A stretch of 64,000 nt of DNA from Synechococcus sp. SynAce01 (GTDB lineage Bacteria > Cyanobacteriota > Cyanobacteriia > PCC-6307 > Cyanobiaceae). The stretch is taken from contig NZ_CP018091.1 in NCBI RefSeq assembly GCF_001885215.1, positions 1,116,001 through 1,180,000 of the forward strand. Direction: 5' to 3'. Below, in pieces: positions 9,483 to 22,419 of this stretch (positions within the stretch are counted from its first letter, which is position 1; every line of letters starts with the position of its first letter). The translations under genes were made by a program, and so were the position numbers. Under the pieces are notes generated by a model. The model searched no databases. It was not told the origin of the DNA and saw only the letters and a program-made list of their open reading frames with translations.

Positions 9483-10154
9483 ATGCTGCCGTCTCCCCCC
9501 GCCTTGGACCGCCCCCTGCTCCTGCGCGCTGAGCAGCTCAAGCGTCAGTTGGGGGATCGACTCCTCTGGAGCCAGCTGGATCTGGAGCTGAGAGCCGGCG
9601 AGCGCCTCGGGTTGGTGGCGCCCTCGGGAGCGGGCAAAACCCTGTTGCTGCGCGCCCTGGCCCTGCTCGATCCGCTGCAAGCCGGCACGATTCATCTGCA
9701 GGGCCGCCCGCCGGCGTCGTGGGGTCTGCCCCGCTGGCGCTCGCTGGTGCTTTATCTCACCCAGCGGCCCGTCGCCCATGGGGGAACGGTGGAGGCGAAC
9801 CTGCGCTCACCCTGGTCATTCCAGGAGCGGCGCGGGCGGGGGGGCTGGCGGCGCGAGCGGATCACGGATTGGTTGGCGGCCCTGGGGCGTGATCCATCGT
9901 TCCTGGCCTACGACGCCGAGCGGCTCTCAGGCGGCGAGCTGCAGCTGTTGGCGCTGCTGCGGGCCCTGCAGCTCGATCCAATCGTGCTGCTGCTGGATGA
10001 ACCGACGGCCTCCCTGGATGGGGCCACCACCGGCGCCGTTGAGGCCCTGCTGATCGCCTGGCTCGGCGCAGGCCCGCGCGCCGCCGTGTTCACCAGCCAT
10101 GACAGTGAGCAGATCCAACGCTTCGCCAGTCGCACCCTGGAGCTCGCCCGATGA
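9483..10154 (+). CDS. fetA: ABC transporter ATPase, FetA-like
   Basis: A 223-residue ATP-binding subunit with Walker A APSGAGKT, the ABC signature LSGGELQLL, Walker B VLLLDEPTASLD and the H-loop TSHD. The next gene, overlapping by four bases (ATGA), is a UPF0014/FetB permease, which identifies this ATPase as FetA (YbbL). In E. coli FetAB exports iron and protects against oxidative stress; metal export here is inferred from that. It starts at an ATG (9483). The P-loop variant APSGAGKT, with Ala-Pro instead of Gly-Pro, is acceptable for the family. Confidence 0.88.
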   Translation: MLPSPPALDRPLLLRAEQLKRQLGDRLLWSQLDLELRAGERLGLVAPSGAGKTLLLRALALLDPLQAGTIHLQGRPPASWGLPRWRSLVLYLTQRPVAHGGTVEANLRSPWSFQERRGRGGWRRERITDWLAALGRDPSFLAYDAERLSGGELQLLALLRALQLDPIVLLLDEPTASLDGATTGAVEALLIAWLGAGPRAAVFTSHDSEQIQRFASRTLELAR

Positions 10155-10969
10155 CGCCAACCAGTTCGGGGGCTCTGACGATCAGCGATGGCCGCCTGGC
10201 GCTCTCCGCCCTGCTGATCCTGGTGAACGTGGCGCTCTCAGCAGCGTTGCGCCTGGGCCTGGCGCGCAGCCTGCTGGTGGCGTCGGTGCGGATGGTGGTG
10301 CAGCTGCTGCTGGTGGGCTTCGTGCTCGAGTGGCTGTTCCGCCAGGACAACGCGCCGCTGATCGTGCTGTTGGGGGCGGCGATGGCGATGATCGCCGGGG
10401 TGTCGGCCGTGCAGCGCACCCGGCGCCGCTTTGCGGGGATCTATCTCAACAGCCTGCTGTCGGTGATGGCGGCGGCGGCCTTGGTGACCGGTCTGGCGGT
10501 GACAGGGCTGATCCAGCCCCAGCCCTGGTACAACCCCCAATATCTGATTCCCCTGCTGGGGATGGTGCTGGGCAACACGCTCAACGGCATCTCCCTGGGG
10601 CTCGATCGCTTCATGGAGGGGTTGCGCAGCGGCCGCGATCGGGTGGAGACGGCCCTGGCCCTCGGGGCCACCCGTTGGGAGGCCTGCCAGGAGGTGGTGC
10701 GCGACGCCATCCGCGTGGCGATGATCCCCACCATCAACTCGATGATGGTGATGGGGCTGGTGAGCCTGCCGGGAATGATGACCGGCCAGATCCTCCAGGG
10801 AGCCGCGCCGGCAGCAGCCGTTCGTTATCAGATTGTGATCCTGTTCATGATCGCTTCTGCCACGGCTCTGGGGGTGTTCGGCGTGGTGGGCCTGGCCTAC
10901 AGGCGGCTCACCAGCGCCGACCATCAACTGCGGCTCGATCGCTTGACCAGTGTTAGCAAGCAGGGGTGA
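10151..10969 (+). CDS. fetB: ABC transporter permease, FetB-like (UPF0014)
   Basis: A 272-residue integral membrane protein with about seven hydrophobic segments. It carries the UPF0014 hallmarks LLGMVLGNTLNGISL and a central cytoplasmic loop (ETALALGATRWEAC) that is the coupling helix for the ATPase, plus the phrase LPGMMTGQILQGAAP. It pairs with fetA through an ATGA overlap. Putative role: export of iron or another transition metal across the plasma membrane. Just after the stop lies a G-rich repeat able to form a quadruplex. Confidence 0.9.
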   Translation: MTPTSSGALTISDGRLALSALLILVNVALSAALRLGLARSLLVASVRMVVQLLLVGFVLEWLFRQDNAPLIVLLGAAMAMIAGVSAVQRTRRRFAGIYLNSLLSVMAAAALVTGLAVTGLIQPQPWYNPQYLIPLLGMVLGNTLNGISLGLDRFMEGLRSGRDRVETALALGATRWEACQEVVRDAIRVAMIPTINSMMVMGLVSLPGMMTGQILQGAAPAAAVRYQIVILFMIASATALGVFGVVGLAYRRLTSADHQLRLDRLTSVSKQG

Positions 10970-11440: not shown

Positions 11441-11458
11441 TATCACGATGTCGTTATG
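11441..11458. promoter_or_regulatory. Candidate regulatory site upstream of the hemerythrin-cyclase pair
   Basis: On the minus strand this reads CATAACGACATCGTGATA. It matches the site at 13986-14003 upstream of heme oxygenase with the shared pattern CATAACGAyAyCGyGATA. It ends 10 bases before the ATG at 11469, where a repressor would block initiation. The regulator is unknown; in Synechocystis the equivalent operon is controlled by the MarR-type ChlR, but I cannot say that this is its site. Confidence 0.4.
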
Positions 11459-11468
11459 ACAGCAATCG

Positions 11469-11903
11469 ATGTCACTGGCTTTGGCGCCTCCGCCTGCTCC
11501 CCTTGCCGAGACCAAGGCTCGGGTTCGCACCAGTAGGTCCCGCCGCTGGCCGCGGCTCTGGACTGAGCAGAGCCTGTTGCTGGAGCGCCAGCATGAGCGC
11601 ATCGAGGCCTTGCTGGAGCAGCTGATCGACGGCCATGGCGTGTCCTCAGAGCACTGCTGCCGCCTGGTGCGGTCCCTCGGCCTTCACCTGCGGCTGGAGG
11701 AGCGCTGGCTGGATCAGGCGGGCTGCCTCTGCCCAGGCCATCGGGTGGCGCACCGGCAGGCCGCCGCCCTCGCGGCCACCATCCCGGCTGGAGCCAGTGA
11801 ACGGCTTGGCTGGCTGATGGACCTGCAGCAGTGGTTCCAGCACCACCGCTTCGGCGCCGATGCCGTGGCCTATGCCCGCGCCTCGCTGAGCGACCAGCCA
11901 TGA
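11469..11903 (+). CDS. Hemerythrin-like diiron O2-binding protein
   Basis: A 144-residue protein. The candidate ligands fit the hemerythrin pattern in order: His42 (RQHERIE), His73 and Glu77 (HLRLE), His91 and His95 (HRVAH), His126 and Asp131 (HRFGAD). The H-x3-E, H-x3-H and H-x4-D spacings equal those of classical hemerythrin, and the wider gaps differ by only a few residues. Such proteins bind O2 at a diiron site and act as sensors, carriers or scavengers. Its stop overlaps the ATG of the oxidative cyclase gene (ATGA at 11900), so the two are co-translated; the cyclase needs O2 and iron. The first ~30 residues are basic and Pro/Ala-rich, without a signal peptide. No output domain is present. 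Confidence 0.72.
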   Translation: MSLALAPPPAPLAETKARVRTSRSRRWPRLWTEQSLLLERQHERIEALLEQLIDGHGVSSEHCCRLVRSLGLHLRLEERWLDQAGCLCPGHRVAHRQAAALAATIPAGASERLGWLMDLQQWFQHHRFGADAVAYARASLSDQP

Positions 11904-12916
11904 CCGCCACCCCAGCCGCCCCCCACCTGCGCGAAGACCTGCTGACGCCGCGTTTCTACACCACAGAAATCAACAAGGCGGCCCGCACCGATCTGGAGCC
12001 CCAGCGGCCGGCCTTCGAGGCGATGCTCGCCGAGATGGAGGCCGATCACAACCGCGACCATTTCGAGCGCAAGGCGCCGCTCGATCGTTTGTGCGCCCTG
12101 GGCCCCGAGGAGAAGCAGGCCTACGAGAGCTACCTGGTGCGCTCCTGTGTTTCGGAGTTCTCCGGTTTCCTGCTGTTCAAGGAGCTCTCACGGCGCCTGT
12201 TCATGGCCGATCGCTCCGAACTGGGTCGCCTGTTTCAGCTGATGGCCCGTGATGAGGCCCGCCATGCCGGTTTCCTCAACCGGGCGTTGGTTGCCGAGGG
12301 CATTGAGATCGATCTACCAAAACTGAGCACGAAGCGGCCGATCACCTGGTTCCCACTCAGCTGGGTGCTTTACAGCGTCTTCCTGTCGGAAAAGATCGGC
12401 TACTGGCGTTACATCCTGATCGACCGGCACCTCAAGGCCCATCCCGACAACGCCTTTGTGCCGCTGTTCGATTTCTTCGAGCCTTGGTGCCAGGACGAGA
12501 ACCGCCACGGCGACATCTTCAACCTGCTGATCCGCTGCTGGCCAGGCCTGAAGCAGGGCTTCCGCGGCAAGCTGCTCAGCCGTTTCTTCCTGTGGTCGGT
12601 GTTTCTCACCCACAGCCTCACCGTCTGCGAGCGAGGCAATTTCTACCGGATCCTGGGCATTGATCCGCACCTGTTCGACGCCGAGGTGATGCGCCAGACC
12701 AACCGCACCGCCCGCCGCGCCTTCCCCTGGGTGTTCGACCTGGAGAACAGCCGCTTTCTGGACCTGCGCGACCGGCTGGTGGCCTGCTTCCAGGAGATTC
12801 AGGCCGCCAAAGCTGGGCGGAGTTCCCCGCTGCAGCAGCTGGGCCTGAAGCTGCACTTCGCAGGTCTGCTGCTCCGTCAGTTCACCCAGCCGATGCAGCA
12901 GGCAGAGGGCGGATGA
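11900..12916 (+). CDS. acsF: Mg-protoporphyrin IX monomethyl ester oxidative cyclase (AcsF/ChlA type)
   Basis: A 338-residue diiron enzyme that makes the fifth ring of chlorophyll (to divinyl protochlorophyllide) using O2. Diiron ligands are visible in E-x-x-H motifs (DEARH and DENRH). EMEADHNRDHFER and the long conserved block KRPITWFPLSWVLYSVFLSE fit AcsF. The ATG at 11900 is chosen because it follows the hemerythrin stop and matches the family start. Cyanobacteria often have two cyclases; the one clustered with heme oxygenase and hemN is the low-oxygen form (ChlAII in Synechocystis). That assignment rests on neighbourhood. Mg is already inserted in the substrate, so the iron is catalytic. 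Confidence 0.92.
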   Translation: MTATPAAPHLREDLLTPRFYTTEINKAARTDLEPQRPAFEAMLAEMEADHNRDHFERKAPLDRLCALGPEEKQAYESYLVRSCVSEFSGFLLFKELSRRLFMADRSELGRLFQLMARDEARHAGFLNRALVAEGIEIDLPKLSTKRPITWFPLSWVLYSVFLSEKIGYWRYILIDRHLKAHPDNAFVPLFDFFEPWCQDENRHGDIFNLLIRCWPGLKQGFRGKLLSRFFLWSVFLTHSLTVCERGNFYRILGIDPHLFDAEVMRQTNRTARRAFPWVFDLENSRFLDLRDRLVACFQEIQAAKAGRSSPLQQLGLKLHFAGLLLRQFTQPMQQAEGG

Positions 12917-12962: not shown

Positions 12963-13679
12963 ATGACCGTTCCAATCCCCGAGACCCCACGTGTGTTCAT
13001 CGGCTATGACCCGCGCGAGCGGGTGGCCGTGAATGTGCTGGCCGATTCCTTCCAAGCCTGCTCAAGCCTGCCGCTGTTGATTGGCCAGGTTCGGCTCGAT
13101 CAGCTGGGCGGCATCTACGACCGCGAACACCACCCCAAACAGAGCACTGATTTCTCCTTCTCGCGCTTCTTGGTGCCGTGGCTGGCGGGCTATCAGGGCT
13201 GGGCACTGTTCATCGACGCCGACATGCTCTGCCTGGCGGATATCGCCGAGCTCTGGGCCCTGCGTGACGAGCGCTTCGCGGTGCAACTGGTGAAACACCA
13301 GCACGACTGCGAGGCAGGCAGAAAGTTCCAGGGCATGCCCCAGACGCCCTACGGCCGCAAGAACTGGTCGTCGGTGATGTTGTTCAATTGCTCCCGTTGC
13401 CGGGCACTCAGCCCGGCCTACGTGAACACCGCCACGGGCCTGGAGTTGCACCAGTTCCACTGGCTGGCGGATGCCGAGATCGGCGAGCTGCCACCGGAAT
13501 GGAACGTGCTTGTGGGCGTCCAGCCGCTGCCGCCCTCACCCAAGATCGTCCACTACACCCTGGGCGGTCCCTGGTTCGACGACTGCCTCGACATGCCCGC
13601 CTCGGACCGTTGGCTGGCCGCCCGCGCCGCGATGAACCACCCGCTGGAGTCCGCGCTGGCCGTTCACCACGAGGCCTAG
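12963..13679 (+). CDS. Glycosyltransferase, GT8-like nucleotide-sugar fold
   Basis: A 238-residue soluble protein. It starts with VFIGYDPRE, a phrase of GT-A transferases, and has the metal-binding D-x-D in LFIDADMLCL, with a later NCSRC segment and C-terminal HYTLGGPWF, which resembles the GT8-type His-containing metal loop. It should transfer a sugar from a nucleotide sugar; donor and acceptor are unknown. It follows the cyclase by 46 bases on the same strand, inside the tetrapyrrole cluster, and is separated from heme oxygenase by a 374-base spacer. A link to pigment metabolism is only positional. Confidence 0.8.
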   Translation: MTVPIPETPRVFIGYDPRERVAVNVLADSFQACSSLPLLIGQVRLDQLGGIYDREHHPKQSTDFSFSRFLVPWLAGYQGWALFIDADMLCLADIAELWALRDERFAVQLVKHQHDCEAGRKFQGMPQTPYGRKNWSSVMLFNCSRCRALSPAYVNTATGLELHQFHWLADAEIGELPPEWNVLVGVQPLPPSPKIVHYTLGGPWFDDCLDMPASDRWLAARAAMNHPLESALAVHHEA

Positions 13680-13985: not shown

Positions 13986-14008
13986 CATAACGATACCGCG
14001 ATAGCGTT
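13986..14008. promoter_or_regulatory. Imperfect palindrome upstream of heme oxygenase
   Basis: Bases 13989-14008 form a 20-bp near-palindrome of pattern AACGnTAnCGCGnTAnCGTT (16 of 20 positions symmetric). Its left part, from CATAACGA at 13986, is shared with the site at 11441-11458 in front of the hemerythrin gene. It lies 45 bases before the ATG of ho2. A dimeric regulator common to both units is the inference. Confidence 0.45.
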
Positions 14009-14053: not shown

Positions 14054-14746
14054 ATGACCACCACCCTCCCAGCCCCGATCTCCGACCACGCCAACCCCCG
14101 CGACGAGGCTGCCCGTAAGGGCTTCGGCCCCCGGGTGCGCCGCCTGCATGCGCGCATCGGTGCCGCCCACCACCAGGCCGAAGGCATGACCTTCTCCCGC
14201 GCCCTGCTTGACGGGCAGGCCAATCCACTGCAATTGGCGGCCCTGATCCGCGCCCTGGGCCCCGGCTACGCCCTGATCGAGCAGCACGGCCCCGAACTGG
14301 CAGCCGCCCTCGGTGCGGCCGATCTCCCCTGGGCGCACCTGGCTCGCAGCAGCGCCCTGGCCAAGGACACGGCAGCCCTGGCCGTCGCGCCGGCAACGCC
14401 CCCCTCAGCCGCTGCCGTCGTCTGGCAGGAGCACCTGCGCACCCTGGCCCAGCAGGAGCCCCATCGCTTCCTGGCCCACGTGTACGTCCGCTATGGCGGT
14501 GACCTTTCCGGCGGTCAGCAGCTGGCTGAACAAGCCAACGCCATCCTGGCGGCCCACGGCCTGCCCCTGGTCACCTTTTGGAGTTTCGATCGGCCGATCA
14601 CGGAGCTCAAGCAGGCCCTGCATGACGGCTTTGAGCAGCTTGAACTCAGCGAGGCCGAGGAGGCCGAACTGCTCGAGGAGACCGTGGTCGCCTTCCAGGA
14701 CACCCAGCGCCTGCTGGCCGAACTGGCACAGGTGGGGAGAGCCTGA
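14054..14746 (+). CDS. ho2: Heme oxygenase (biliverdin-producing), low-oxygen paralog by context
   Basis: A 230-residue enzyme that opens heme to biliverdin IX-alpha, CO and Fe2+, supplying phycobilin synthesis; it uses O2 and ferredoxin. The proximal heme ligand is His39 in AAHHQAEG. The distal-helix signature YVRYGGDLSGGQQL is complete. Its first ~20 residues are an extra hydrophilic tail. It is followed 55 bases later by hemN on the same strand and preceded by the palindrome at 13989. In other cyanobacteria ho2, chlAII and hemN form a microaerobic cluster; the same trio is found here, which favours the ho2 name over ho1. Confidence 0.92.
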   Translation: MTTTLPAPISDHANPRDEAARKGFGPRVRRLHARIGAAHHQAEGMTFSRALLDGQANPLQLAALIRALGPGYALIEQHGPELAAALGAADLPWAHLARSSALAKDTAALAVAPATPPSAAAVVWQEHLRTLAQQEPHRFLAHVYVRYGGDLSGGQQLAEQANAILAAHGLPLVTFWSFDRPITELKQALHDGFEQLELSEAEEAELLEETVVAFQDTQRLLAELAQVGRA

Positions 14747-14801: not shown

Positions 14802-16181
14802 ATGACCGCCACCACTCCTGAGCGTCTCGATCCGTTGCAGTTGTTGCTCAAGCACGACAAGCCCGTTCCCCGCTACACCAGCTACCCCACCGCCGCCAGC
14901 TTCCACACCGAGGTGGGAGCGGCAGAGCTGGCAGCGGAGCTGGGGAGACCCAGCACGGACGACGTTTCCCTTTACGTCCACATCCCCTTCTGCCGCCACG
15001 CCTGCTGGTACTGCGGCTGCAACCGGATCACCAGCCAGGCAGGCGCCAAGGTGGTGGGCCCCTACCTGCAGGCTCTGGCCCGGGAACTGGAGCTCATCGG
15101 GCAGTGCTCCGGCCAGCGCCGGCGGCTAGGCCAGCTGCACTGGGGCGGCGGCACACCCAACTACCTCAGCCTGGCCGAACAGGCCCAGCTCTGGGCCCTG
15201 ATCGAGCAGCACTTCGACCTGGCCCCCGACCTGGAGGCCTCGATCGAGGTGAACCCAGAGTTCCTCAGCCGCGATGAGGTGCAGGGCCTGCGGCGGCTGG
15301 GGTTCAAGCGCATCAGCTTCGGCATCCAGGACGCCGATCCCCAGGTGCAAGCGGCCGTCAACCGGATTGTGCCGGTCGATCAGCTGCGCCGGGCGATGGC
15401 CTGGATGCGGGAGGCGGGCTTCGAGAGTGTGAATGTGGATCTGATCTGCGGCTTGCCACTTCAGACTCCGGAGCGCTTCGCCACCACGATCGCCCTAGTG
15501 GAGGGACTGCAGCCGGATCGGGTGTCGCTGTTCAGCTTCGCCTACCTACCCGGGCAGCTGCCATTGCAGCGCAAGATCGCCGCCGATGATCTGCCCAGCC
15601 AGCGAGAGCGGTTGCGGATGCTGCAGGGCGCCTACGAGGCCTTCACCAGCGATGGCTACATCGCCATCGGCATGGACCATTTTGCCCTGCCCGGCGACAG
15701 CCTGGCAGCGGCGGCAGGCCAAGGACGTCTGCACCGGAATTTCCAGGGTTACACCACCGGAGGTGAGCTTGATCTGCTCGCGATCGGCGTCACGGCGATC
15801 AGCCAGTACCCCCGCTTGTTCAGCCAGAACCAGCGGGATCTCAAGGGCTACTACGCCGCCCTCGCGGCCGGCCAGCTGCCGGTGGAGAGGGGCCTGGTTG
15901 TTCAGGATCCAGAGGTGTTGCTGCGCCGCCAAATCATTCAGCGGCTGATGTGCGATTTCCGGATTGACTTCGACAGCTTGAGCCTGGAGGGACCGCTGGA
16001 TGGCCCCCGCCGCTTTGCCGCCGAATGGGAGGATCTAGGGCAACTGGAGGTGGATGGCCTGCTGCGGCTGGAGCCCAATGGCTTGACGGTGAGCCATGAG
16101 GGCCGCTGGCTGATCCGCACGATTGCCGCCGTGTTCGATCCCCAGCAGCGCCAACGGGCCAGCGGTTCACGGCTGGTTTAG
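14802..16181 (+). CDS. hemN: Oxygen-independent coproporphyrinogen III oxidase
   Basis: A 459-residue radical SAM enzyme that converts coproporphyrinogen III to protoporphyrinogen IX without O2. The 4Fe-4S motif is CRHACWYCGC, i.e. C-x3-C-x2-C-x-C, the HemN-specific form with the extra cysteine. Upstream PRYTSYPTA is the family N-terminal signature, and the glycine-rich GGGTPNYL and IEVNPEFL follow. Length and the C-terminal HemN domain (VLLRRQIIQRLMCDF) are normal. As the last gene of the low-oxygen cluster it replaces the O2-dependent HemF when oxygen is scarce. Its stop converges on the methyltransferase-like gene 7 bases away. Confidence 0.96.
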   Translation: MTATTPERLDPLQLLLKHDKPVPRYTSYPTAASFHTEVGAAELAAELGRPSTDDVSLYVHIPFCRHACWYCGCNRITSQAGAKVVGPYLQALARELELIGQCSGQRRRLGQLHWGGGTPNYLSLAEQAQLWALIEQHFDLAPDLEASIEVNPEFLSRDEVQGLRRLGFKRISFGIQDADPQVQAAVNRIVPVDQLRRAMAWMREAGFESVNVDLICGLPLQTPERFATTIALVEGLQPDRVSLFSFAYLPGQLPLQRKIAADDLPSQRERLRMLQGAYEAFTSDGYIAIGMDHFALPGDSLAAAAGQGRLHRNFQGYTTGGELDLLAIGVTAISQYPRLFSQNQRDLKGYYAALAAGQLPVERGLVVQDPEVLLRRQIIQRLMCDFRIDFDSLSLEGPLDGPRRFAAEWEDLGQLEVDGLLRLEPNGLTVSHEGRWLIRTIAAVFDPQQRQRASGSRLV

Positions 16182-18345: not shown

Positions 18346-18967
18346 CGTGCAGGTGGATGTGATCAGACTCTTCCTGCCGCTTCCCGCACAGCAGCTCGCT
18401 CCCAGACGCACCACCAGAACCGAAAACAGTTTCGGTAGCGCCCCTCCGTGTGATGTTCAATCTCACCGCCCGTCATCTGGATGATCACCTCGAAACTTCA
18501 CCTTTCTTGGATAGATCGTCATCGCCAGTGGTCGCTTTCACCTGCCTTTGTTGTCACCTGGAGTTTCAATCCCAAGGACGATTGGACCGCAACCCATCAG
18601 ATATCAGTGAATGGCCAGCGTGATCATTTCAATTGCGCCGATTTCGAAGTCATTGGCGGTACGCCCACGCTTTGTGGCGGATGCGGGTGTCCCTGAGGTC
18701 ACCTGGAATGAGTCAGAACAGCTATCAACAGCTATCACCTGAGCCTCCTTCAGCCCTGCACCGCCTACGCCTGGCCTCCAGAAGCAACGGCTTGTTCTCA
18801 CTATGTCCAGCCTGATGAGCTCAAGCGTGGGTGCAACGTGGCTTTTCTGACCCTGCAGGCGGGGGCTGTACAGCGATAAGATGCTATGGTTAAAAATGCT
18901 TTGCTCAGGACTTGCACAGAGGCGAGGTAAAGCCTCTCTGAAGCATCCAACGCGAATTGTAGCGCCG
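18346..18967. other. Intergenic spacer between thiD and the GH13 pair
   Basis: 622 bases without a gene I can support. A small hairpin, CCGAAA (18420-18425) with TTTCGG (18430-18435), may end the thiD transcript. A 71-codon frame at 18481-18696 (IDRHRQWSLSPAFVVTWSF in part) has no known relatives that I recognise and codon use unlike the neighbours; it is at best a decayed gene. The AT-rich stretch around 18880-18900 may be the promoter of the glucosidase genes. Confidence 0.4.
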
Positions 18968-20725
18968 ATGAGCACGAAGGGTGATTCACCCGGCACCAAC
19001 GTCAGCCCACGGCTATGTCCCTGGTGGCGATGTGATCCTTCGCCCGGTCGCCCCTGGTGGAAGGATGCAGTGATCTACCAGATCCTGCCCTGGAGTTTCC
19101 TCGATACCAGCGGCACCGGTATTGGTGATCTGCAGGGAATCATCCGTCGACTTGATTATGTTGCCTCCCTCGGGGTAGATGCCATCTGGCTGACTCCTTT
19201 TTACGAGTCACCCATGAAGGATTTGGGCTATGACATCACGGACATGCTCGACATCGACCCCCTATTCGGGGTGATGAAGGATTTCGAGGAACTCCTATCC
19301 ATTGCCCACGATATGGGGCTCAAGGTGTTGATCGATCAGGTCTGGAATCACACCTCCCAGCTGCACCCATGGTTTGTGGAGAGCGCCTCCAGCCGTACCA
19401 ACCCCAAATCAGACTGGTATGTCTGGCATGACCCACGCGACGATGGCTCCCCGCCAAACAACTGGCTTTCGGCCTTCATGGGACGCAGCGCCTGGCAATG
19501 GCATCTGGGGCGCCGCCAGTACTACCTCGCCAACTTTCTGCCCTGTCAGCCAGAACTCAACTGGCATAACCCGCAGGTGCTGGAGGCCGTGCTCGATCTG
19601 GCCCGCTTCTGGCTGGACAAGGGCGTCGATGGTTTCCGCATCGACGCCGTGAACTTCTTCGTTGAGGACCCTGCTCTTCGCGATAACCCGGAGCGCACAC
19701 CGGAGATGGGACTTCCTGACGGGATCTCGCCCGATAATCCGATGGTCCGCCAGCAGTTTGTGAACAGTTTCTGTCGCCCTGAGGTGTTCGAGCGGCTGCC
19801 TGCCATCCGGGCACTGTTGGATGAGTATCCCAACGTCGTGAGCCTGGGCGAGGTGACTCTCGCTGAGGATTCAATCTCTCTTTCTGGTGCCTATGTACAG
19901 GGTGACAACCGTCTGCACCTCGCCTACAACAGCTCTCTGCTGCAGGACTGCCCCCTGTCGATGACGATGCTGCGAGAGGTGATTGAGCGCACCCTCAGCA
20001 ACTTTCCCGACCAGGGGCAGTGCTGGATGGTGGGAAATCACGACTATGGCCGGTTCCGCTCGCGCTGGACTGGCACCGATCAGCACGGCCAGCCCTATCC
20101 GGAAGTCGCGTATCACATGATGGCGGCTCTGCTGACCTGTCTCCCCGGAGCCCTCTGCCTCTATCAGGGCGATGAGCTGGGTTTGCCGGAAGCTCGGATT
20201 CCCGCCGACATCCCCGAGGACCGGATCCGGGACTCGTTCGGCAAGGCGCTCTATCCGGTTCTGCCTGGTCGTGACGGCTCCCGCACACCGATGCCCTGGG
20301 TGTCCAGGGCTCCCCAGCAGGGTTTCACCACTGGCGGGCAGCCCTGGCTGCCGATTCCACGTCGGCACAGGGCTCTGGCGGTGGACCTCCAGACGAACGA
20401 TCCCAGCTCCCTGCTCAACACCTGGCGCCGGCTGCTGCACTGGCGCCGGGAACAGCCCGCCCTGCACAGCGATGCAATCACCGTTCTGGAGACAGGGGAG
20501 CCCTTGCTGGCCTTCCTGCGCGGCGACTCCGGGGGACGCAGTGTGTTCTGCCTTTTCAATACCAGTGGGCGCTGGGCCGACTTCCATCCCTCACGGCATG
20601 GTCTGGTCGATTGCCCCCTGCAACCCTCCTTGGTGATCCACGGCTTGAACGCCTTCGGCGAGGATCATGTTTGTGGCGGGGTTCTGCGATGTCCCCCCTA
20701 CGGAGCCCTTGTGATGGAGCGATGA
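18968..20725 (+). CDS. GH13 alpha-glucosidase-family protein, first of a tandem pair
   Basis: A 585-residue glycoside hydrolase family 13 enzyme with an (alpha/beta)8 barrel. Catalytic residues are in place: nucleophile Asp226 (GFRIDAVNF), acid/base Glu295 (LGEVT) and third carboxylate Asp359 (NHD). Barrel start WWKDAVIYQILPWSFLDTSG and the GVDAIWLTPF strand match oligo-1,6-glucosidase/alpha-glucosidase relatives. No signal peptide, so cytoplasmic. The ATG at 18968 adds about 27 residues before the barrel. It overlaps the second GH13 gene by four bases (ATGA). It probably cleaves or transfers alpha-linked glucose; sucrose, maltose or glycogen-derived sugars are possible substrates. Confidence 0.88.
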   Translation: MSTKGDSPGTNVSPRLCPWWRCDPSPGRPWWKDAVIYQILPWSFLDTSGTGIGDLQGIIRRLDYVASLGVDAIWLTPFYESPMKDLGYDITDMLDIDPLFGVMKDFEELLSIAHDMGLKVLIDQVWNHTSQLHPWFVESASSRTNPKSDWYVWHDPRDDGSPPNNWLSAFMGRSAWQWHLGRRQYYLANFLPCQPELNWHNPQVLEAVLDLARFWLDKGVDGFRIDAVNFFVEDPALRDNPERTPEMGLPDGISPDNPMVRQQFVNSFCRPEVFERLPAIRALLDEYPNVVSLGEVTLAEDSISLSGAYVQGDNRLHLAYNSSLLQDCPLSMTMLREVIERTLSNFPDQGQCWMVGNHDYGRFRSRWTGTDQHGQPYPEVAYHMMAALLTCLPGALCLYQGDELGLPEARIPADIPEDRIRDSFGKALYPVLPGRDGSRTPMPWVSRAPQQGFTTGGQPWLPIPRRHRALAVDLQTNDPSSLLNTWRRLLHWRREQPALHSDAITVLETGEPLLAFLRGDSGGRSVFCLFNTSGRWADFHPSRHGLVDCPLQPSLVIHGLNAFGEDHVCGGVLRCPPYGALVMER

Positions 20726-22419
20726 GCCCTCAACAGCAGTGGTGGCGTTCCGCGGTGATCTACCAGATCTATCCGCGTAGTTTCATGGACAGCAGCGGCA
20801 ACGGTGTTGGCGATCTTAGAGGCATTATCCAGAAACTTCCCTATGTCGCTTCCCTTGGCGTCGATGCGATCTGGGTGTCCCCGTTCTACCTATCGCCGAT
20901 GAAGGACTTTGGCTATGACGTCAGTGACTATCGCCAGGTCGATCCTCTCTTTGGAACTCTTGAAGATGTTCGTGCGCTCCTCGATGAAGCCCACAGCCAT
21001 AGCCTGAAGGTGATCATCGATCAGGTCTGGAGTCATACCTCCGACCAGCACCCCTGGTTTCTCGAGAGCAGAAAGAGTTGCCATAATCGCCACACTGACT
21101 GGTATGTCTGGCATGATCCTGGCCCCGATGACCAGCCTCCCAGCAACTGGCTGTCCACCTTCGGCGGCTCGGCCTGGACATGGGAACCCCAGCGCCGCCA
21201 GTACTACCTCCACCATTTCCTCAAGGAGCAGCCCGCCCTCAACTGGCGGAATCAGGAGGTTCAGGAGGCCATGTTGGACGTGGGGCGCTACTGGCTCGAC
21301 ATGGGCGTCGACGGTTTTCGTTTCGACGTCATCAACTTTCTGGTAGCCGATCAGAACTGCCGCGACAATCCACAGCGGCTTCCAGGTATGGCCCTGCCCG
21401 ACGGGGCCTTCGGAGAGGTCCCCTTCTTTCAGTTCGTGAACACCTACAACCAGGGCCGGCCGGAGTCCGTGGAGATAGTGGAACGCATTCGGGCCTTGCT
21501 CGACAGCTATCCGGAACGCACCAGCCTGGCCGAGGTGTCGTGCGCCGAGGACGCGATCGCCGATGCGGCTGCCTACGTGGACGCTCCCGACAAGCTGCAC
21601 ATGGCCTACAACTCCTCCCTGATGAGCGAGGAGCCCCTTGATCGCGCCCGGCTCACGGGCATCATCGAGCGGGTGCAGGCCCAATTCAAGGGCGGAGTCC
21701 TTTGCTGGACCGCCGGAACCCACGACTTTCCCCGCCTCGCCTCCCGCTGGCACGGGGCTCTGATGGACGAACACTTCAGTCAGGAGGCCTTCGACCATCA
21801 GCTCGCCGCGCTCCTGATCAGCCTGCAGGGCAGCTGCTGCATCTATCAGGGTGACGAACTCGGGTTGCACCAGGCCGAGATCCCCCGCGAGCGGATGCAA
21901 GATCCCTTCGGGATTCGGGGCTATCCGCTGGTGCTGGGTCGCGATGGTTGCCGCACCCCCATGCCCTGGACGATTGAGGGCGATCAGGCCGGGTTCACCA
22001 CGGCGCCGGAGGCCTGGCTGCCGCTCCCACGGGAACATCGCCGCATGGCGGTGGAGGCCCAGGAGCGCGACCCCCAGTCACTGTTGAACAAATACCGCCG
22101 TCTGATCCACTGGCGCCGGCGGCAGGAGGCCCTCACCGATGGTGACCTGCAGTTGCTTCCCAGCGAAGACCCTGTGCTGGCCTTCTGTCGTCGGGCCGCC
22201 AGCCAGACCCTCCTGTTTGCGTTCAATTTCGACAGGGTGCCGGTCTACCAGTCCCTGGAACATTGGCCGGCCTGCCGTCAGGCCGATGAACTGGATTTTC
22301 AGGTGAGGTGTTTCGAGAGCACAGTCGAGATCCCCGGTTTCGGAGTGTTCATCGCTGTTGCCGAGCCTGTGACCTCGTCCATCCATCCGATCGCAGGGTC
22401 TCCTGGTCTCCTCCGGTGA
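20722..22419 (+). CDS. GH13 alpha-glucosidase-family protein, second of a tandem pair
   Basis: A 565-residue paralog of the preceding gene, sharing whole phrases (GVDAIW, SPMKD-GYD, DWYVWHDP). Catalytic residues are Asp202 (GFRFDVINF), Glu271 (LAEVS) and Asp335 (THD). The third motif is TAGTHD rather than the usual NHD, so the residue before His is Thr instead of Asn, which may affect subsite -1. It is translationally coupled to the first by ATGA. The two probably arose by gene duplication and then diverged. Substrate unknown; no carbohydrate-binding domain or signal peptide. Confidence 0.88.
   Translation: MSPQQQWWRSAVIYQIYPRSFMDSSGNGVGDLRGIIQKLPYVASLGVDAIWVSPFYLSPMKDFGYDVSDYRQVDPLFGTLEDVRALLDEAHSHSLKVIIDQVWSHTSDQHPWFLESRKSCHNRHTDWYVWHDPGPDDQPPSNWLSTFGGSAWTWEPQRRQYYLHHFLKEQPALNWRNQEVQEAMLDVGRYWLDMGVDGFRFDVINFLVADQNCRDNPQRLPGMALPDGAFGEVPFFQFVNTYNQGRPESVEIVERIRALLDSYPERTSLAEVSCAEDAIADAAAYVDAPDKLHMAYNSSLMSEEPLDRARLTGIIERVQAQFKGGVLCWTAGTHDFPRLASRWHGALMDEHFSQEAFDHQLAALLISLQGSCCIYQGDELGLHQAEIPRERMQDPFGIRGYPLVLGRDGCRTPMPWTIEGDQAGFTTAPEAWLPLPREHRRMAVEAQERDPQSLLNKYRRLIHWRRRQEALTDGDLQLLPSEDPVLAFCRRAASQTLLFAFNFDRVPVYQSLEHWPACRQADELDFQVRCFESTVEIPGFGVFIAVAEPVTSSIHPIAGSPGLLR

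Follow-up and report, generated by a model that had tools for sequence, protein, structure and literature searches.

The window considered here is a stretch of 64,000 nucleotides from a single-contig picocyanobacterial genome of 2.75 Mb. It carries a cluster that begins with hly, a gene for a small hemerythrin-like protein (Hly), followed by acsF2, which encodes a ChlAII-like cyclase, and then by ho and hemN (Table 1). The preliminary description of this DNA had called the hemerythrin-like protein translationally fused to the cyclase. The stop codon of hly and the start codon of acsF2 do share ATGA (11900-11903), as it reported, but the reading frames differ and the genes merely overlap. The overlap may allow translational coupling, with no fusion protein.

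Table 1. Features of the hly-acsF2 cluster, with positions counted from the first nucleotide of the window.
Feature	Position	Strand	Remarks
Operator-like palindrome ATCACGATGTCGTTAT, conserved, 5' of hly	11442..11457	+	Perfect match to ATNACGNTGNCGTTAT
hly, hemerythrin-like protein, 144 aa	11469..11903	+	Predicted ligands H42, H73, E77, H91, H95, H126, D131
acsF2, ChlAII-like Mg-protoporphyrin IX monomethyl ester oxidative cyclase, 338 aa	11900..12916	+	NF010172 and TIGR02029 above cut-off
Glycosyltransferase-8-like gene, in the acsF2-ho interval	12963..13679	+	Frequent, not constant, cluster member
Second operator-like site, weaker, 5' of ho	13987..14002	+	
ho, heme oxygenase, same cluster as acsF2	14054..14746	+	PF01126; synteny
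hemN, oxygen-independent coproporphyrinogen III oxidase, same cluster	14802..16181	+	TIGR00538 above cut-off; synteny

Among homologous loci, overlaps of -4 (ATGA) or -1 (TGATG) are common at the hly-acsF2 junction but not universal, and the remaining pairs are separated by 8 to about 140 bp. The gene order in relatives is a pentapeptide-repeat gene, a divergent arsR, hly where present, acsF2, a glycosyltransferase gene in some, ho, and hemN, the last of which lies several kb away, or outside the fetched stretch, in many loci. In nearly all relatives (L063-L093, L098-L120), the pentapeptide-repeat gene and arsR are oriented divergently from acsF2. A pair of FetA/FetB iron-exporter-like genes (window 9483-10969) lies directly 5' of the hly promoter. 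These neighbours were rejected as members of the system, as they are not conserved even in the closest relatives. Two adjacent, overlapping genes of the alpha-amylase family are found further along (window 18881-22419).

The palindrome ATCACGATGTCGTTAT is located 5' of hly, or 5' of acsF2 where hly is absent. It occurs in 94% of Hly loci and in 2.5% of random stretches, the pattern having been derived from those same loci, and within the genome the degenerate pattern ATNACGNTGNCGTTAT is matched perfectly at one place, the window copy. No operator-like site was found in the 3' part of hly, and it is therefore likely, judging from sequence, that one promoter serves both genes; a sigma-70 promoter scan returned no match. 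The ArsR-family protein of the relatives matches PF01022 and contains no cysteine. The arsR ortholog of the window genome is located elsewhere (C1:2428829). The idea that Hly substitutes for the ArsR regulator was rejected, since most Hly loci have both.

The identification of Hly as a hemerythrin begins with its ligands. All seven diiron-site positions named in the preliminary description are present in the places it gave (His42, His73-x3-Glu77, His91-x3-His95 and His126-x4-Asp131). Five histidines, one glutamate and one aspartate form the diiron ligand set of O2-binding hemerythrin (PMC9388753), and Hly has this set with classical spacing. Conservation among close homologs bears this out: across an alignment of 35 Hly homologs the seven ligand columns are invariant, with H73Q in one homolog as the sole exception, while the non-ligand histidines (56, 62 and 125) are all variable. 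The Pfam hemerythrin profile (PF01814) matches residues 37-136 of the window protein weakly (E=0.0013, 19.6 bits), under a curated cut-off of 25.3 bits that is a detection threshold and no property of Hly itself. The match is real across the family, being found in 26 of 30 homologs at E<=0.1, with a best E of 2.2e-5. Searching the PDB directly with the Hly sequence gave nothing credible.

Compared with single-domain hemerythrins and bacteriohemerythrins (DcrH-Hr, 2awc; Methylococcus Bhr, 4xpx; myohemerythrin, 2mhr), Hly shares the 5-His/Glu/Asp set, a C-terminal W-x3-H-x4-D motif and, as predicted, the four-helix fold. Its ligand spacing (H-31-H-4-E-14-H-4-H-31-H-5-D) is near-identical to that of myohemerythrin (29/4/15/4/29/5), whose ligands we take to be numbered H25-H54-E58-H73-H77-H106-D111. 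In an independent profile alignment with a myohemerythrin sequence identical to 2mhr, H126 and D131 of Hly correspond to H106 and D111, and F123 to L103. Hly differs from the hemerythrins in its sub-threshold Pfam score, in a proline-rich N-terminal extension that is modelled with low confidence, in its fixed linkage to a chlorophyll cyclase, and in this phenylalanine, which stands three residues before the last ligand histidine in 29 of 30 Hly homologs where myohemerythrin has leucine. With this substitution, the O2-binding pocket could be altered and O2 bound poorly; a phenylalanine at this pocket position warns specifically of possibly unusual O2 handling.

An AlphaFold2 model of Hly, built on 35 homologs, contains helices at 31-54, 60-83, 89-102, 109-127 and 130-141, with pLDDT of about 95 across most of the helical part. 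When the model was compared with known structures using VIA-align, ranks 1 to 12 were all O2-binding hemerythrins (Z 12.2-13.3), among them DcrH-Hr (Z 13.3, rmsd 2.3 over 109) and myohemerythrin (Z 12.6); helical bundles can give such Z-scores by chance, so that the weight rests on the specificity of this list and on the ligands. Foldseek gave nothing at E<=0.001, and hemerythrins emerged only with VIA-align and the profile. In the confident four-helix model, each predicted ligand sits in the same helix as its myohemerythrin counterpart. Together, these results support Hly as a protein of predicted hemerythrin fold with a classical 5-His/Glu/Asp site.

The partner of Hly is a true cyclase by NCBIfam (NF010172, TIGR02029) and has two ExxH diiron motifs, EARH (119) and ENRH (200). 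In the AcsF tree, the solitary acsF of the genome groups with ordinary ChlAI, while AcsF2 falls in a long-branched clade. The acsF2, ho and hemN genes form one cluster apart from ChlAI, as in Synechocystis and Synechococcus 7002, where a chlAII-ho2-hemN cluster is induced by ChlR under micro-oxic conditions (PMC4500134). Both arrangements combine a second cyclase, a heme oxygenase and hemN, with a solitary ChlAI-type acsF elsewhere. The window cluster differs in having hly inserted first and in the strong divergence of the acsF2 clade, and the cluster of its relatives differs in having a divergent regulator of the ArsR family and, often, a glycosyltransferase gene between acsF2 and ho. The preliminary description had called AcsF2 a low-oxygen cyclase. 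Its linkage to ho and hemN is the basis on which we infer this label by analogy; against it, an enzyme of the AcsF2 clade is the sole AcsF of Prochlorococcus-like genomes. In these genomes (the name is inferred; L094, L095 and L168) that enzyme is 65% identical to AcsF2, and Hly is absent.

The association between Hly and AcsF2 was surveyed in 300 genomes of the family Cyanobiaceae, with AcsF2 counted at >=70% identity. Hly was present in 33 of the 72 genomes with AcsF2 and in none of the other 228 (Fisher p 3e-24, kinship ignored); the 33 include one genome (G220) in which a contig end truncates the gene, and they leave out two weak matches. At all 30 inspected loci, hly was directly 5' of acsF2 and never beside the solitary acsF, a distribution that the preliminary description had proposed to survey. 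Of 34 named loci in Cyanobium, Synechococcus and Vulcanococcus, which were retrieved by querying contigs with an alignment (a single-protein query gave none), nearly all have the same order. The pairing is broken in two metagenome contigs only: in L150 a deletion brings hly next to the end of hemN, and in L139 a membrane-fusion-type gene follows hly. A cyanobacterial arsR-hly-acsF2 locus also occurs in a metagenome bin labelled Bifidobacterium breve, on a contig (L153) that is mis-binned.

When 386 genomes of the phylum were searched with a profile, Hly was confined to Cyanobiaceae. Hit lists from 136 of the phylum's genomes, compared by eye, placed every PF01814 gene more than about 50 kb from any acsF. 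Hly as a companion of every acsF was rejected, because the solitary acsF lacks it and the acsF genes of the other cyanobacterial genomes surveyed have no PF01814 gene nearby. About half of the genomes with the AcsF2 cluster have no Hly, which indicates that AcsF2 does not need it and that Hly is accessory. Conservation of the hly-acsF2 pairing in many freshwater picocyanobacteria suggests that Hly helps AcsF2, most likely when O2 is scarce.

The divergence of Hly correlates with that of AcsF2 (Mantel r 0.66, 0 of 2000 permutations). Mapped onto the AcsF2 tree, the presence and absence of Hly require about 11 changes, at least 8 of them on well-supported branches. In one genome (G029; contig C14:18250, locus L160), a stop-truncated remnant of hly persists behind an operator-like sequence, which is evidence of loss. 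The changes on the tree, the fixed position of the gene and its co-divergence with AcsF2 fit an old acquisition followed by repeated loss, which is probably the history of hly; transfer is possible too. Such patchy loss suggests that Hly is a condition-dependent helper.

What Hly does for AcsF2 is most likely to act as a local O2 buffer or donor, a reading to which we assign a probability of roughly 0.4. It is favoured by the strict pairing, by an intact site of the O2-binding type and by a context presumed to be micro-oxic. Hly, as a single-domain hemerythrin with a four-helix bundle and a presumably iron-occupied 5-His/1-Glu/1-Asp site, would be made with AcsF2 from one transcript and induced together with the acsF2-ho-hemN cluster, presumably at low O2. 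When O2 is scarce, it would bind the gas reversibly and keep it available, perhaps by physical delivery, beside AcsF2, which would consume it at its own diiron centre. The parallel is bacteriohemerythrin, which has been proposed to serve methane monooxygenase in this way: in purified form, Methylococcus Bhr was able to provide pMMO-enriched membranes with O2, although overexpression of Bhr in another methanotroph aided respiration and not methane oxidation (PMC12607906). The absence of Hly from about half of the AcsF2 genomes, the phenylalanine at the pocket and the H73Q homolog also count against an O2 donor.

The best-placed alternative, although a doubtful one, is that Hly is a partner in assembly, iron loading or stabilisation, holding iron and passing it to the AcsF2 diiron site or protecting that site. 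Strict pairing with one enzyme, the stop/start overlap and co-divergence would fit a subunit or chaperone no less than an O2 donor, and auxiliary subunits are a known requirement of cyclases (PMC7319587). The iron-exporter-like genes just 5' would also fit, in this window only. Hly would then have a role comparable to that of the auxiliary subunits Ycf54 or BciE, with no likeness in sequence: no Pfam match to PF10674 (Ycf54) was found in it. The analogy, a possible one only, is that of a small protein dedicated to an O2-dependent AcsF; unlike Ycf54 and BciE, Hly is dispensable across relatives, and the many AcsF2 genomes that lack it weigh against assembly. The genome encodes its own Ycf54 (C1:414070), so that the Ycf54 role is already filled, and Hly as a replacement for Ycf54 was rejected on this ground. 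Furthermore, the site is of the O2-binding type and not of the carboxylate-rich iron-storage type.

It is less probable still that Hly senses O2 or redox state and thereby adjusts expression of the cluster, possibly via the divergent ArsR-family regulator. Several bacteria do use hemerythrin domains as O2 or redox sensors (PMC9388753), the absence of cysteine leaves ArsR with no evident Fe-S or thiol sensor, and hly sits immediately behind the regulated promoter, where an autoregulator is typically encoded. However, Hly has neither a DNA-binding nor an output domain, an arsR-acsF2 pair with the same operator is found in about half of the genomes that lack Hly, and arsR has moved away in the window genome.

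Of similarly low probability is a detoxifying diiron protein, acting on peroxide, NO or stray Fe/O2 chemistry and shielding O2-sensitive HemN or the cyclase. A mycobacterial hemerythrin-like protein has NO peroxidase activity (PMC8913304), a Campylobacter hemerythrin-like protein is described, in work cited in PMC4660385, as protecting Fe-S enzymes, and hemN is a member of the cluster; yet hly is first in the operon and linked to acsF2, with hemN often kilobases away or off the fetched stretch. Finally, a metal-free, degenerate four-helix bundle with a chance seven-residue pattern is very improbable: the sub-threshold Pfam score and the high Z-scores that bundles produce as such would allow it, but the family alignment, with ligands conserved and other histidines variable, led us to reject a chance pattern, the best structural matches are specifically hemerythrins, and dN/dS was below 1 for every pair tested (0.25-0.84).

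Taken more broadly, the chances are evenly balanced that Hly is a dedicated hemerythrin partner of a chlorophyll cyclase, for O2 supply or assembly, and so a further accessory class besides Ycf54/BciE that is restricted to freshwater picocyanobacteria. The conserved hly-acsF2 pairing seems to be undescribed. In the open-access literature searched, no paper combined hemerythrin with Cyanobium, and acsF and hemerythrin appeared together in one paper only, on methanotrophs. The supply of O2 or iron to diiron oxygenases close to anoxia is an open question, and hemerythrin delivery of O2 to specific enzymes has so far been argued mainly for methane monooxygenase. Gene order links Hly, a protein of predicted hemerythrin fold, to a single enzyme with an easily measured substrate (Mg-protoporphyrin monomethyl ester) and product, and sister genomes with and without Hly occur naturally. 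Consequently, the question can be tested directly in a photosynthetic organism.

The window genome also holds a broken remnant of acsF, ~100 residues long and with 67% identity to acsF2 (C1:504404-504822, minus strand; locus L003). It adjoins a membrane-fusion-type gene, and in genus g36 such a gene neighbours arsR-acsF2. This remnant is probably what is left of the ancestral acsF2 locus after decay, suggesting relocation or regain of the operon in the window.
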